This document shows, piece by piece, positions 16,216 through 22,680 of a stretch of DNA of 64,000 nt. Source of the stretch: an uncultured Myxococcales bacterium. GTDB lineage: Bacteria; Myxococcota_A; UBA9042. The stretch is taken from positions 1-64,000 of the forward strand of contig CAJBNH010000137.1 of assembly GCA_903955385.1 (NCBI GenBank), read 5' to 3'. The notes under the pieces are model-generated. The model ran no database searches and was not told the origin of the DNA. It worked only from the letters and a program-made list of their open reading frames with translations. The translations under genes and the position numbers were made by a program. How positions within the stretch are numbered: the first letter of the stretch is position 1; each line of letters opens with the position of its first letter.

Positions 16216-19200
16216 ATGAAGCCGACCGTTGTGCTCGTGTTCTTGATGATGCTAGCGGCCTGTACGCAGGAAGTGCCTGGCGAGAACAAGTTCGCGCCCC
16301 TCGACGGCGCCGCCGACACGACCGTCGACCCCGACGGCGTGACCGATGACGGCACCGTTGACCCGGACACGCTGGCGGACGGCGACGGCACCATCGGTAG
16401 CGACGCGGACGTCGACACGGATGCGACCGACATCGACGCCACCGACGTCGAAGACGGCAGTGACTCCGACACCCAAGGCGACGCCGACGCGGAAGACGTC
16501 GACACGACCCCGGACATCGACATCACCCCGACCTGTCCCGGCGGCACCGGCTGCGCTTGCGAATTGGAAACCGATTGCGATTCCGGGTTGTGTGCCGCCC
16601 CTTCCGAAGGCGAGCCCAAGATCTGTGCCAAAGGCTGTGTCAAGGGTTGCGATGACGGCAACGCCTGCACCCAGGACACCTGCGACATCTTCGGCGGATC
16701 GTGCGTGTCCCTGCCGCAAGAGGCCACCTGCGACGACGCCAATGTCTGCACCGAGAACGACCTCTGCGCCGACGGTACCTGCAAGGGAACACCGGCCGTC
16801 GCGGCTGTGGCGTGCGACGACGGCAGCTCGTGCACCGGGGACGACGCTTGCGCCGACGGCATCTGCACGGGCAAGGCAAAAGACTGCGACGACGGCAAGC
16901 CCTGCACGCAGGACAGCTGCGACCCGGCCACCGGCGAATGCGCCCACGCAGCGATGGCTGAGGGCGCCTGCAACGACGGCGACCCTTGCACGCTGGCCGA
17001 CCACTGTGACGCGGGCGACTGCCTGCCGGGCCTGATGAAGACCTGCAACGACGGCAACCTGTGCACCAGCGATGCCTGCGATGGCGTCAAGAACCCGATC
17101 GACGGATGCGTGTTCGACCATCAGGACGGGCCGTGCGACGACGGTCAGGCGTGCACGTCGGGCGACCTGTGCATCGCGTCGACCTGCAAGGCCGGCGCGT
17201 CGCTGCTGAACGAGTGGGCCTTGGGCACCGACGGCGACGAGGTGCTGTACAGCGTGGTCGGCTTGGTGGATGGCGGATTGGTCGCGGCGGGCACCAGCAA
17301 GAAGGACGACCCGGCAGGCGATCCGTGGATTCTCAAGGCAGCGGGCATGGCCTCGGTCCCGGCAGAGACCGTGTTCGCCAATCACCCGGCGGTTGGGCTC
17401 AAGGCGCTGCGCAAGGCACCCAACGGCAAGTGGATTGCGGTCGGTGAGGTCGTGCAGCCCGGCACAGGTCGCGACCTGTTCATGGCCCGACTCAGTGCGG
17501 ACATGGCGGTCGAGTGGACGCTGACGGTGGCTGGCGCGCTGGACGACTACGCAGGGGACGTCGTGGCGATGCCCGCAACGGGCGCCGATGGAGCGGGTTA
17601 CGTCGCGGTCGGTCGCACTGGCGTTGCCGGCGGCAAGACCCGCGGCTGGGTCGTGCGGGTCGACGAGTCCGGCGCCCTGGTCGATACGCAGCAGCTCGGG
17701 TCGGTCGATGGTCGTCTGTCGTCGGTGGTCGTGCTGTCCGACGGCAGCCTGATTGTGGCCGGCCAGACCCAGCTGCCGTCGGCCTCCCATCCCGACGGCT
17801 GGGCCTTGCGTGTCGACCCCGCGCACCACGTGGTGTGGGAGAAGTCGTTCGGCGGCTCGTGGCCCGACGGTCTCAACCGCATTGTTGCGCTTGCGGACGG
17901 CTCCTACGGCGCGGTGGGCTTCACCGAGACGGCCAGCAGCAGCCGCGACTTCTGGTTCGTGCGCCTGGACGGCTCGGGCAAAGTCCTGACCAAGCTCTCG
18001 ATTCCCACCACGTCGGCAGCGTCGGCGTGGGGCCTGGCAGAGCTGTCCGACGGTGGCTACGTCCTTGCAGGGCAGAAGCAACTCGACGCCACCAACATCG
18101 ACGGCATGATGGTTCGACTCGACGCCACGCAGCAGGTGGTCTGGACGCGCACGTACGGCGGCAACCTCTCCGACGGATTCAACGACGTCGTGTCCCTGCC
18201 CGGTGGCCGCCTTGCGGTGGTCGGCTGGACCCGGTCGATGGGCAAGTCCCTCAGCGAAGACGGCTGGATCCTGCGCACCGATGGCTGGGGCAATCCCGAG
18301 TGCGGCGCGTCAGGCGAGTGTCTGGGCATGGCGCGGGCCCTGTGCAACGACGACGCTTCTTGCACGTTCGACACCTGCTCGGCCGGGTTGGGCTGCGGGC
18401 ACGCGCCGGTCGTGACGGGAACCACTTGCGCCGTGGGCGGTTGCACCGGGCTCACCCGGACGCTGGGCAGCGTGTGCACGGCAGAGGGCAACTGCGAAGC
18501 GGTCGCCAACCCGCAGAACTGCAACGACGGCGACGCCTGCACCACCGACGAGTGCGACGTGGATCAGGGCTGCACGCATCAGGCGTTCACCGGGCTTTGC
18601 CCCGGGCCGAAGGCTTGCGACTCCGCCGTGTGCCAGTCGGGCCAGTGCGTTCCGCAAGGCAGCGACCGCCTGTTCTCCAAGACCTGGGGCACGTATGACA
18701 TGACGGCCGACCCGGTCAGCCTGGTCAACGCTCCCGATGGGGGCTTGGTCGTCCTGTACCCCAAAGGCTCGGCGGCCAATCCGGACATCGGTTTTGCGCG
18801 TTTCTATGCCGACGGTTCCCTCTACTTCACCAAGACGCTGGGCGGCGGCGCGACCAGTGAGGTACCACGTGGCATGGTGCGTCGGCCCGATTCGGGCTTC
18901 GCCATCATCGGCCGCACCAACCAGACCAGCCAAGGCGACACCGATCTGGTGCTGTGGCGGGTGTCTCCGTCAGGCATCGTCTTGCCGCCGACGATGTATG
19001 GCGGCACGGGCGCCGAGCTCGCCGGGGCGCTGGCGGCGATTCCCGAGGGCCCCGCCGGACCTGCGGGCTATCTGCTGACCGGCAGCACGGCCTCGCAGGG
19101 CGAGACGGGAGCGGGTGCGGGCGACGCCTACGTGGTGCGCACGGACATCGACGGCAAGCTGATGTGGCACAAGTGGTACGGCGACGGCTCATCCGAGCAC

Positions 19201-19971
19201 GCGCGCGCGGTGGTGTGGCTGGACGGACTGATGCCGGGCGGGTTCGGTTCGCTGATCGCGGCTCGCACTGGCCCCACCGGTCAAGAGGACGTCTGGCTCG
19301 TGCGGACGGACGCCACCGGCAAGGTGCGTTGGACCAAGCAACTTGGCGAAGTCGGCAAGTCCGAGATCCCCAACGCAGTCGCAGTGTTGCCAGCGAATAC
19401 GCCCGGTGGCTGGGGCTTCGTGGTGGTGGGCACGACGACGCTGGCGGATCAGACGACCCAAGGTTGGGCGACCCGTCTGGACGTCGCCGGTCAGGTCGTG
19501 TGGACGCGCACACTGACGGCAGCTGGACTTGAAGTGGCCAGTGCGCTGGCGGTGCTGCCGGGCGGTGACTTGCTGGTGTCCGGCAAGGGTGGCAAGCCGT
19601 CCGACGGCAGGTTGGTGCGACTCGACTCCAGCGGGAACACGGTTTGGAAGCGCAGCTACGATCAGGGCAAGGGCGCCGACGAGTCCGCCAGCGTGATGAC
19701 CGTGCTTTCCGACGGCGGCATCGCTTTGGGCCTGTCGGGTCCCGGCGACATCGGCTACGCCGCAGGCTTGTGGGTCATTCGCACCGATGCTTGGGGCGAG
19801 CTCTCGTGCTCCATGTCCAGCAACTGTGCGGCCAAGCAGCCGGTCGACTGCAACGACAACAACCCCTGCACGGCCGACCTCTGCACCGCCGGAGAGTGTC
19901 TGGCGCAGAACCTGCCCGACGGCATGATCTGCGGCACCAACAAGACGTGCCTTGCCGGCAAGTGCAACTAG
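16216..19971 (+). CDS. Giant Cys-rich surface lipoprotein with two beta-propellers
   Basis: 1251 residues. The signal peptide ends in a lipobox (LAAC, C16). An Asp/Thr-rich linker (25-105) follows, then Cys-rich repeats (110-330, cores like CDDGNACTQDTC), a first propeller (330-690, blades with LVDGGLVAAG or LSDGSLIVAGQT), a second Cys-rich block (690-815), a second propeller (815-1190) and a Cys-rich tail. The blades resemble the delta-60-type repeats of myxobacterial surface proteins. It should be anchored in the outer membrane and extend from the cell. The ATG at 16216 follows GGGGGA; the upstream open frame is not coding-like. Adhesion or ligand capture is an inference. Confidence 0.88.
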   Translation: MKPTVVLVFLMMLAACTQEVPGENKFAPLDGAADTTVDPDGVTDDGTVDPDTLADGDGTIGSDADVDTDATDIDATDVEDGSDSDTQGDADAEDVDTTPDIDITPTCPGGTGCACELETDCDSGLCAAPSEGEPKICAKGCVKGCDDGNACTQDTCDIFGGSCVSLPQEATCDDANVCTENDLCADGTCKGTPAVAAVACDDGSSCTGDDACADGICTGKAKDCDDGKPCTQDSCDPATGECAHAAMAEGACNDGDPCTLADHCDAGDCLPGLMKTCNDGNLCTSDACDGVKNPIDGCVFDHQDGPCDDGQACTSGDLCIASTCKAGASLLNEWALGTDGDEVLYSVVGLVDGGLVAAGTSKKDDPAGDPWILKAAGMASVPAETVFANHPAVGLKALRKAPNGKWIAVGEVVQPGTGRDLFMARLSADMAVEWTLTVAGALDDYAGDVVAMPATGADGAGYVAVGRTGVAGGKTRGWVVRVDESGALVDTQQLGSVDGRLSSVVVLSDGSLIVAGQTQLPSASHPDGWALRVDPAHHVVWEKSFGGSWPDGLNRIVALADGSYGAVGFTETASSSRDFWFVRLDGSGKVLTKLSIPTTSAASAWGLAELSDGGYVLAGQKQLDATNIDGMMVRLDATQQVVWTRTYGGNLSDGFNDVVSLPGGRLAVVGWTRSMGKSLSEDGWILRTDGWGNPECGASGECLGMARALCNDDASCTFDTCSAGLGCGHAPVVTGTTCAVGGCTGLTRTLGSVCTAEGNCEAVANPQNCNDGDACTTDECDVDQGCTHQAFTGLCPGPKACDSAVCQSGQCVPQGSDRLFSKTWGTYDMTADPVSLVNAPDGGLVVLYPKGSAANPDIGFARFYADGSLYFTKTLGGGATSEVPRGMVRRPDSGFAIIGRTNQTSQGDTDLVLWRVSPSGIVLPPTMYGGTGAELAGALAAIPEGPAGPAGYLLTGSTASQGETGAGAGDAYVVRTDIDGKLMWHKWYGDGSSEHARAVVWLDGLMPGGFGSLIAARTGPTGQEDVWLVRTDATGKVRWTKQLGEVGKSEIPNAVAVLPANTPGGWGFVVVGTTTLADQTTQGWATRLDVAGQVVWTRTLTAAGLEVASALAVLPGGDLLVSGKGGKPSDGRLVRLDSSGNTVWKRSYDQGKGADESASVMTVLSDGGIALGLSGPGDIGYAAGLWVIRTDAWGELSCSMSSNCAAKQPVDCNDNNPCTADLCTAGECLAQNLPDGMICGTNKTCLAGKCN
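16621..17190 (+). repeat. Cys-rich repeat array (first block) in the 16216 lipoprotein
   Basis: About ten tandem units, each roughly 18-40 codons, built on C-D-D-G-x-x-C-T followed by D-x-C and a GxC. The recurring DNA core is near tgcgacgacggc. The same unit family recurs in the genes at 22748 and 26055. Confidence 0.8.
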
Positions 19972-20008
19972 GCAGCGCGCCTGCGGGATGACGAGAGCGG
20001 AGGCAGCC

Positions 20009-20320
20009 GTGGCGTACGCATCGCGATCGAGACGCTCCTTCTTGGTTGAGATCCTGAACAAGTCTGCGGCTTTGTGGGCGGTTGCCACGGTTGGGGCTGC
20101 CGCTGCCACGCTTCCTGGGTGTTGCGGCACAGGGCACAAGGACGAACCCGCTGATCCCGCACCGGATCCAGGCCTTGCGGCCAAGTACGGCGGTCCCGAG
20201 CCGGACCCGCAGCCCACGCCAGATCCCGTCCCCGCCGAGAAGTACGGTGGTCTGCCAGACGAGCCTGAGGCTCCGCCCGAGCCGGCCACGAAGTACGGCG
20301 GGCCATTCCGCAAGAACTAA
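20009..20320 (+). CDS. Small Tat-type lipoprotein with three KYGG repeats
   Basis: 103 residues. The N-terminus has a twin-arginine motif (SRRSFL), a hydrophobic stretch and a lipobox-like end (TLPGC). The mature part is Pro/Asp/Glu-rich and carries three KYGG cores: AAKYGGPEP, AEKYGGLPD and TKYGGPFRKN at the C-terminus, spaced 19-22 residues apart. I do not recognise a named family. The GTG at 20009 is chosen because GGAGG lies 5 bases before it and it yields a standard Tat n-region; an ATG at 19988 is the alternative. The gene starts 37 bases after the giant lipoprotein and 113 bases before the fibrinogen-like gene. The regularly spaced Tyr-Gly-Gly could be binding sites or targets of modification. 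Confidence 0.72.
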   Translation: MAYASRSRRSFLVEILNKSAALWAVATVGAAAATLPGCCGTGHKDEPADPAPDPGLAAKYGGPEPDPQPTPDPVPAEKYGGLPDEPEAPPEPATKYGGPFRKN

Positions 20321-20433: not shown

Positions 20434-22680
20434 ATGGCCAAGAGGCAACGGTTCGCTCGGCACATGCCTTCCCTCGTCCTTGCAGTCCTGGTCGCGGGGG
20501 CATCGGCGGTTCCGGCGCACGCCGCAGTGCCCACCTTTGTTCAGGTGGAGGGTGCGCTGTTCGCCACAGGGGGCGGGCCGGTCGCCGACGGAAACTATGC
20601 ATTGACCTTCAAGCTCTTCGCCGTCGAGTCGGGCGGCCAGGCCGTGTGGTCCGAGGGCCCCGTTCAGGCCGCCGTGAAGGGCGGCAGCTTCAGCCACGCG
20701 CTTGGCAGTCAGGAGGCCCTGACCCCACAAGTTCTGGCGCAGCAAGCGGTCTGGCTGGCGGTGCAGGTCGGCGCCGACCCCGAATTGGCGCGCAAGCCGA
20801 TGTCCGCCTCACCCTTCGCGCTGCGGGCGGCCCTGGCCGAAGGGCTTGACTGCTCGGGGTGTGTCGCGCTGTCGCACTTGTCTGCGGACGTACTGGCGCC
20901 GTATGCGAAGTCGGCGTCGCTGGCCAAGGTCGCGGCTACTGGCAACTACGCGGATCTTGCGGGGGCGCCCGACCTCACCGTGTTTGCGAAGACGTCGGCT
21001 CTTGCGACGGTTGCCCTGACGGGCAAGTTCGCCGACCTGGACGGTGGTCCCGACCTGTCGGCCTACACGAAGACCTCTGCACTGGCGGCGGTGGCGCTGT
21101 CCGGAGCATACGCGGACCTCGATGGCCTGCCGAATCAGGCCAAGCTGGGCGTGTCGTGTGGAACAGGTTTGGTGATCAAGGGGTTGAAGGCGGACGGCTC
21201 GTACGAATGCGTCGTCGCGATGGACCCGACCGCGCTGCCTGGCGACGGCCTCGACGAGATCTCGTCGGGTGCGCTGACCAACCAGTTCACGGACGTCGTG
21301 AAGTCCGCCAAGACCGGCATCGGCATCCCCGACAACAACCCGGTGGGCGTCAGCGATTCGGTCGACGTGCCCGACCTGGGTATCGCGCAGGCATTGACGG
21401 TTTCGGTGGACCTGGCGAACAGCGACACCGCCAATCTGAAGATCCTGCTGCTCGACCCGACGGGGGCCAAGTACACGCTGTGGGACAAGTCTGCCAAGGG
21501 GACCGCCGTGAAGACGACCTGGCCGTCGCCCACCAAGACCGTGTCCGGCGACCTGACCAGCTGGGTAGGTCAGAACCCCAAGGGAAAGTGGTACTTGCAG
21601 GTCATCGACTCCGGCTTCCTGAACAACGCGATCGACGGTCAGTTGAACGGCTGGAGCCTGAACGTCTCGACCATGTCGGGCAAGAAGGTGGCCGCGACCG
21701 GGACCCTTCTGGTGCAGGGCATGTTCGGGTTGCCGACCGCCGAGAGCGCGCCGGAGGCCTGCGACGCCACCAAATTCGGCTACATGTACGCGAACACCAA
21801 AGACAAATCGGTCTACTTCTGCAACGGCAAGTTCTGGTTTGCAATGGCCATCGACTTGGCGCCCAAGAATTGCAAAGAGGCGCTGGCTCAGGATCCGTCG
21901 GCCAAGGATGGCGTGTATGCCATCGACCCCGACGGTCCGTTCGGCAACGGCTCGATTCAGGTCTACTGCGACATGACGACCGACGGCGGCGGGTGGACGC
22001 TGTTGCGCAACATCGCCCCCAACGACGGCAACAGCGTCGGCTACAACAATCAGCAGTTCTGGACCACGCAGACCGAGTACGGTGTCTTCTCCGACCGCTT
22101 CGCCAAGGACTACAAGAGCCCGGCGGATTGGCTGGTCCAAGGCACGCAGCTGATGATTCAGTCGACCAACACCGGCGCGAGCGGGTCCGTCTTGGGCTGG
22201 CGCCGCTGGCCAATGCTGAACAGTCAGGCGCGAGCGTTCAGCACGTTCTTCTCCACCGGCATCGTCAGCGTGCACGGCACCGATGCCTGTGAGACCGGCA
22301 ACGCGGACGGGGGCGACGCCGGAACCTCGAATGCTTGGGACGACATCTTGCGGCGCGGCACCTGCCTGTACGCCGACGTGAATCCGAGCAGCAGCGGCGA
22401 AGGCGACACGATCCGCCTGACCACGATCCCCGGAAACGGCACCGACAACATGATGTCGGGATTCGCCAGCTGCATTGATTGCGGCGCCTCGCCGTGGCAG
22501 GGATCCGGCGCGTACATGGGCTTGGACCGCGCCGGGTGCAACTCGACGGGCTGTGGCTACAACCAGATCTGCCGCATGCCGGGGCCTCCGGCTGCCGACT
22601 GCCAGGGCAATTACTGCAACGGCACGTACTCGAACGCGTCCTGCGGATCGAACTGGAATGCGCGCTTCTACGTGCGCTGA
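20434..22680 (+). CDS. Secreted fibre-repeat / P-domain / fibrinogen-like protein
   Basis: 748 residues with a cleavable signal peptide (about 1-30, ending AHA). After a beta-sandwich-like N-terminal region come three 27-residue repeats (about 158-235, pattern KTSALA-VALTG-YADLDG-PDL), similar to tail-fibre or trimeric-stalk repeats. A proprotein-convertase P-like beta-sandwich follows (about 272-410, ending in NGWSLNVS), then a fibrinogen C-terminal-like domain (about 475-748) marked by YCDMTTDGGGWTLL and many Cys. No protease domain is present, so the P-like domain is stand-alone. The ATG has GGAG 7 bases upstream. It probably acts outside the cell as a multimeric binding protein; the ligand is unknown. 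Confidence 0.85.
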   Translation: MAKRQRFARHMPSLVLAVLVAGASAVPAHAAVPTFVQVEGALFATGGGPVADGNYALTFKLFAVESGGQAVWSEGPVQAAVKGGSFSHALGSQEALTPQVLAQQAVWLAVQVGADPELARKPMSASPFALRAALAEGLDCSGCVALSHLSADVLAPYAKSASLAKVAATGNYADLAGAPDLTVFAKTSALATVALTGKFADLDGGPDLSAYTKTSALAAVALSGAYADLDGLPNQAKLGVSCGTGLVIKGLKADGSYECVVAMDPTALPGDGLDEISSGALTNQFTDVVKSAKTGIGIPDNNPVGVSDSVDVPDLGIAQALTVSVDLANSDTANLKILLLDPTGAKYTLWDKSAKGTAVKTTWPSPTKTVSGDLTSWVGQNPKGKWYLQVIDSGFLNNAIDGQLNGWSLNVSTMSGKKVAATGTLLVQGMFGLPTAESAPEACDATKFGYMYANTKDKSVYFCNGKFWFAMAIDLAPKNCKEALAQDPSAKDGVYAIDPDGPFGNGSIQVYCDMTTDGGGWTLLRNIAPNDGNSVGYNNQQFWTTQTEYGVFSDRFAKDYKSPADWLVQGTQLMIQSTNTGASGSVLGWRRWPMLNSQARAFSTFFSTGIVSVHGTDACETGNADGGDAGTSNAWDDILRRGTCLYADVNPSSSGEGDTIRLTTIPGNGTDNMMSGFASCIDCGASPWQGSGAYMGLDRAGCNSTGCGYNQICRMPGPPAADCQGNYCNGTYSNASCGSNWNARFYVR
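20905..21140 (+). repeat. Three 81-bp coding repeats (fibre-like) in the fibrinogen-like gene
   Basis: Units begin at 20905, 20986 and 21067, exactly 81 bases apart, each encoding about 27 residues with core LA-VA-(T/S)G-(Y/F)ADL-G-P. The exact spacing and strong protein similarity indicate tandem duplication. Confidence 0.85.

Follow-up and report, generated by a model that had tools for sequence, protein, structure and literature searches.

A lipoprotein-like protein with three KYGG sites in a Myxococcales genome belongs to a family paired with radical SAM/SPASM enzymes and is a candidate splicease substrate

The closest described systems to the one reported here are the PlpXY splicease, whose PlpX we take to belong to TIGR04103 (nif11-class peptide radical SAM maturase 3), and the systems of TIGR04133 (radical SAM/SPASM protein with lipoprotein, rSAM_w_lipo). 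According to the available sections of the published account, the natural targets of PlpXY are MYG and LYG, the leader of the precursor is dispensable, and the site can be transplanted into other proteins on a short tag, although most of those tried in FtsZ were not accepted (PMC10533398). One of these tags, RPLYGLPI, contains YGxP, and Lys in the X position is absent from the same sections, which also state that the group had reported 939 predicted splicease systems (PMC10533398). The products, spliceotides, are called protease inhibitors in the available part of another account (PMC11117315), and as of 2022 no natural spliceotide had been isolated and the role was unknown, as stated in the accessible text of a third (PMC8868522). 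Among the matches listed in a literature search for TIGR04133, TIGR04134 and TIGR04103 there was no paper using these identifiers, and among those listed for KYGG as a word there were only papers with off-subject titles; TIGR04133-like systems may already be among the 939 predicted splicease systems.

We analysed a window of 64,000 nucleotides from the genome of an uncultured Myxococcales bacterium (201 contigs, 95.6% complete, 5.3 Mb). At 20009-20320 on the forward strand, as was all that follows in this paragraph, it carries a gene for a protein of 103 residues, with a GTG start at 20009, a TAA stop at 20318-20320 and a Shine-Dalgarno-like GGAGG (19999-20003) 5 bases ahead of the start codon; the gene is supported by its sequence, by a paralogue match and by dN/dS. 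The preliminary description of this gene holds up in most structural details. The twin-arginine signal that it reported is present as SRRSFL at residues 7-12 (20027-20044), the lipobox-like Cys as LPGC at residues 35-38 (20111-20122), from the pattern of which Cys38 is the predicted lipidated residue, and the background is rich in Pro and acidic residues (26% Pro and 18% Asp/Glu in the mature part). The three KYGG cores that it described are likewise present, at residue 59 followed by Pro (20183-20194), at residue 78 followed by Leu (20240-20251) and at residue 95 followed by Pro (20291-20302), the last being near the C-terminus, five residues from the end; the spacing, given as 19-22 residues, is 19 and 17. 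The window protein combines an SRRxFL motif, a hydrophobic stretch and a lipobox Cys, and the genome encodes TatC (213 bits), so that the sequence features looked for in a Tat-exported lipoprotein are present, and we predict it to be one.

Three KYGG sites in this protein are more than chance would give: three were found in none of 100,000 shuffles of its mature part. Across the 5.3 Mb genome the KYGGP DNA pattern occurs eight times, twice in the window gene and six times in its one paralogue, and the reversed pattern occurs twice. Pfam (at E≤1) and PHROGs returned no family for the window protein, and two NCBIfam matches (E 0.023 and 0.37), far under the cut-off, were judged to reflect composition. 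Over codons 2-38 the comparison with the paralogue gave a dN of approximately 0.22 with dS saturated; the window copy therefore looks selected rather than decayed, and decay was ruled out on this dN/dS result. Upstream, at 16216-19971 (forward strand, start codon picked by eye), lies a lipoprotein-like gene with Dicty_CTDC and delta-60-type repeats, identified from Pfam/NCBIfam domains, which ends 37 bases 5' of the KYGG gene and which we count as a neighbour, not as a part of the system. The downstream neighbour (20434-22680) is a P-domain/fibrinogen-like gene, and another such gene lies near the second KYGG gene of the genome (L018:12265-14559); with 65 P-domain matches in the genome, this shared context says little.

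The preliminary description had also proposed that the repeats might be a modified peptide and that radical SAM genes should be looked for nearby. No radical SAM gene lies beside the window locus, the nearest match on the same contig being approximately 41 kb away, and the pairing is therefore not visible from the window alone. It becomes visible at the paralogue. The genome has one further lipoprotein match (E 3.8e-18), on contig C81, encoding 182 residues with seven XYG (XYGG) sites, and a radical SAM gene of 378 codons starts 70 bases after its stop on the same strand. Pfam assigns Radical_SAM and SPASM domains to this C81 enzyme, which among the 42 Radical_SAM matches of the genome is the sole one of its TIGR04133-like type (search at E≤1e-80). 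This genome alone carries two lipoprotein copies; eight genomes searched for further copies gave one match each, apart from one with none by that profile, the alignment for which, as for the profile search below, contained one row (L019) lacking the signal peptide.

Among 52 genomes of the class, a protein search found the lipoprotein at E≤0.001 in five (G000, which is the window genome, G002, G009, G016 and G019), and the enzyme at E<1e-200 was found in the same five (Fisher p 4e-7); distant enzymes (1e-81 to 1e-88) were present in five more. Weaker lipoprotein matches (E 0.003-0.01) in eight genomes were attributed to composition and left out. A profile search at E≤0.001 gave seven genomes, the two extra ones with matches near 5e-4; one of these (G021, 5.2e-4) is a frame without YGxP and was also set aside as composition, and the other (G039, 5.3e-4) proved to be a zinc-ribbon protein that carries EYGMP repeats and AYGIP. 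A two-motif DNA pattern found 2 of the 52 genomes, fewer than the protein search, on which our counts are based, the pattern being left out. In four relatives the enzyme gene begins 0-7 bases after the lipoprotein gene or, with the first possible start, overlaps it. A scan of named genomes added five KYGGP loci in Myxococcota MAGs (L062-L066) with the same gene order. With duplicates merged (L062, L021 and the G009 locus are one, as are L066 and L169 from a phylum search), the enzyme directly follows the lipoprotein gene at all nine distinct KYGGP loci outside the window, namely the paralogue and eight others, all of the latter in Myxococcota or relatives of the window genome; the window copy is the only one seen without an adjacent enzyme. 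The KYGG lipoproteins are thus strongly tied to a radical SAM enzyme, as the preliminary description had anticipated in suggesting modification. The window gene is one of a family coding for lipoprotein-like proteins in which XYGG(P) is repeated, and in the other members a radical SAM/SPASM enzyme gene comes immediately downstream.

The sites themselves are highly regular. Of the 50 Tyr residues in ten family proteins (two of which are closely similar), 45 stand in XYG. At these 45 sites X is Lys 43 times and Met twice; YG is followed by Gly at 44 of them, and the position after that is Pro at 42. An A-x-x-W element was recognised by eye in all ten. The signal is less uniform, with a twin Arg in six of the ten signal peptides and SRRSFL in five.

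TIGR04133 was the top NCBIfam model for all five KYGG enzymes, with scores of 269.7, 290.6, 286.6, 273.9 and 277.4 bits, all under the 425-bit cut-off. These enzymes also match many other SPASM models at 120-148 bits, including mycofactocin and heme maturases, and TIGR04103 fits them no better than heme-synthesis models do. They form one clade with full support in two trees (9 and 7 rows, respectively), and this clade and the TIGR04133-like enzymes group together (29 rows, 100/99), opposite a sister group with ten TIGR04103-like rows and two control rows; a single clade of KYGG, TIGR04133-like and TIGR04103-like enzymes that leaves out the two control rows was rejected (p-AU 0.003). The label TIGR04133-like was assigned by scan rank and trees, and it includes one enzyme (L102) that the tree places apart. 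Seven of the enzymes so labelled were scanned with NCBIfam, of which four were above the cut-off and two were below, while for Anaeromyxobacter L085 there was no match at E≤1e-50. A PDB sequence search with the enzyme alignment (E≤1e-10) returned nine sequences, with no splicease among them. Of 282 genomes searched across the phylum, 95 have TIGR04103-like enzymes at E≤1e-80, and the TIGR04103 cut-off of 725 bits was reached in none of the 282, the best score being 687.

The YGxP element extends beyond the KYGG family. When small frames adjacent to the enzymes were examined in equal narrow windows, YGxP was present at 6 of 6 KYGG loci (five distinct), 36 of 57 TIGR04133-like loci, 15 of 20 TIGR04103-like loci and 3 of 38 other SPASM loci, the last being more distant hits of the same scan rather than a random draw. 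Reversed proteins gave 0, 3, 0 and 4, respectively. In wider windows the counts were 6, 39, 18 and 6 (reversed 0, 3, 1 and 6). Fisher tests on the narrow windows, in which related sequences were counted separately, gave p values of 3.7e-8 for the TIGR04133-like and 3e-7 for the TIGR04103-like loci. Beside TIGR04133-like enzymes the frames carry MYGVP in Alistipes, EYGSP or EYGTP in Cryptobacteroides, CYGPAP in Prevotella and other Bacteroidales, IYGPPP after a Cys in Planctomycetes and Lachnospiraceae, CYGMP in Treponema, CYGIP in a 333-residue frame in Anaeromyxobacter, and repeated LYGPP, MYGPP or VYGIW in other Myxococcota. The X residue thus differs between clades (K, M, E, L, V, C and I) and Tyr-Gly is constant. 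There were 21 of the 57 TIGR04133-like loci without YGxP in the counted frames, some of them with CYGPAP or YG[IV]W.

Several variants of this arrangement were also seen. At L057:2496-3513, two similar tandem proteins follow a TIGR04133-like enzyme and carry several [MLV]YG[IV][WF] motifs each, with Trp or Phe in place of Pro. At a number of loci in Bacteroidales, Planctomycetes and Lachnospiraceae (L070, L072, L077, L089, L094 and L096-L098) the XYG lies at the lipobox itself (CYGPAP, ACIYGPPP), and the modified residue would therefore be the lipidated Cys or its neighbour. Among the TIGR04103-like loci (L149-L168), the small frames at the 15 of 20 fetched that have the motif carry [LMAEV]YG[GAIV]P; several of the neighbouring proteins (L153, L162, L168) open with a CPxC...CPFC segment, and that of L149 ends in IQPLYGVVSDP.

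How, then, does the window locus compare with the described systems? It shares with TIGR04133 systems a small lipoprotein-like gene with XYG in the lipoprotein, which at the paralogue and the eight other distinct loci, and not at the window locus, adjoins the enzyme. The KYGG enzymes differ, however, in scoring 270-291 bits where four of the seven other enzymes scanned pass the 425-bit cut-off, in forming a separate clade, and in being paired with proteins that have several sites where one is usual. With PlpXY, as far as it is described in the available sections of PMC10533398, the likeness lies in the X-Tyr-Gly target (KYG three times in the window protein, XYG at 45 sites across the ten family proteins), the radical SAM partner and the YGxP of one tag. 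In contrast to Plp precursors, which have a Nif11 or nitrile-hydratase leader, KYGG proteins have a Tat/lipoprotein signal; no Pfam family, and hence neither leader, was found in the window protein (E≤1) or the paralogue (E≤0.01). Moreover, X is Lys. PlpX needs PlpY; Pfam revealed no PlpY-like domain in the three enzymes scanned. As for TIGR04103, the TIGR04103-like enzymes of Myxococcota likewise have XYGxP proteins as neighbours and are placed on the sister side of the tree, but they have their own clade and several of their substrates open with the CPxC...CPFC segment.

On balance we favour the reading that the window gene encodes a multi-site, Tat-exported splicease substrate that is modified in trans by a TIGR04133-like radical SAM/SPASM enzyme before export, a reading drawn from sequence that we consider somewhat probable. 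The C81 enzyme would act on the XYG sites in the cytoplasm, and the window copy would presumably be served by it in trans. From the motif we infer splice chemistry: splicing appears the most likely reaction because the constant element here, YGxP, matches the PlpXY tag RPLYGLPI. The radical enzyme would cut part of the Tyr from the protein backbone (tyramine excision at XYG, with a loss of 135.08 Da per site), leaving lysyl alpha-ketoamides at the Lys-Tyr-Gly sites, and the modified chain would then be exported by Tat and lipidated at Cys38. Such an order of events would ease a puzzle raised in the preliminary description, that Tat export is odd for so disordered a chain, because a radical SAM enzyme working in the cytosol must meet the chain before it is exported; Tat is not family-defining, however, given the twin Arg in only six of ten. 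Keto-amides trap serine and cysteine proteases. The lysyl ketoamides are predicted to be reversible covalent traps for trypsin-like proteases, which are the expected target because X is Lys. The full proposal would be a covalent protease trap with several heads, tethered to the cell surface and produced by splicing of the backbone, with one enzyme for an adjacent seven-site and a remote three-site substrate. It would belong to a broader set of spliced, membrane-anchored proteins spread over Myxococcota, Bacteroidota, Planctomycetota, Spirochaetota and Bacillota, with X setting the protease specificity; in this extended form it is a tentative proposal that we regard as possible but doubtful.

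The enzyme might instead alter XYG by another reaction, such as a Tyr or Lys crosslink, decarboxylation or epimerisation, and the product would then be an altered, unspliced surface peptide. We think this rather unlikely: sequence does not fix the chemistry and the many other SPASM models matched at 120-148 bits leave room for it, but the variation of X between clades with Tyr-Gly held constant is an argument against a link between Lys and Tyr and agrees with the XYG rule for PlpXY. Less likely still is that the family is modified and the window copy is not, being a duplicate without an enzyme that has kept its repeats for another use or works unmodified. The missing adjacent enzyme, seen at no other copy, and the position behind an unrelated repeat lipoprotein gene would suit such a duplicate, whereas all three sites have been kept, as have the lipobox and the Tat motif, and the dN of approximately 0.22 against saturated dS over codons 2-38 argues the same way. 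That the repeats are unmodified surface binding epitopes or spacers and that the enzyme acts on something else, a view to which gene order as the sole tie between lipoprotein and enzyme and the low-complexity, Pro- and acid-rich sequence lend some colour, seems very improbable in light of the pairing at nine of nine loci, the near confinement of Tyr to XYG and the recurrence of the motif next to related enzymes from other phyla, and the binding epitope offered in the preliminary description is not needed.

If the splicease reading is true, TIGR04133, a curated but chemically undefined family whose systems are met in many gut Bacteroidales, would be tied to one reaction, tyramine excision at XYG, and its role would be to produce anchored ketoamide inhibitors of proteases, with the key residue set by the gene. 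Lys-containing sites might also broaden the TyrEx labelling method, as it is described in the available sections of PMC10533398. Membrane-anchored substrates such as these would offer a direct route to finding a natural spliceotide.
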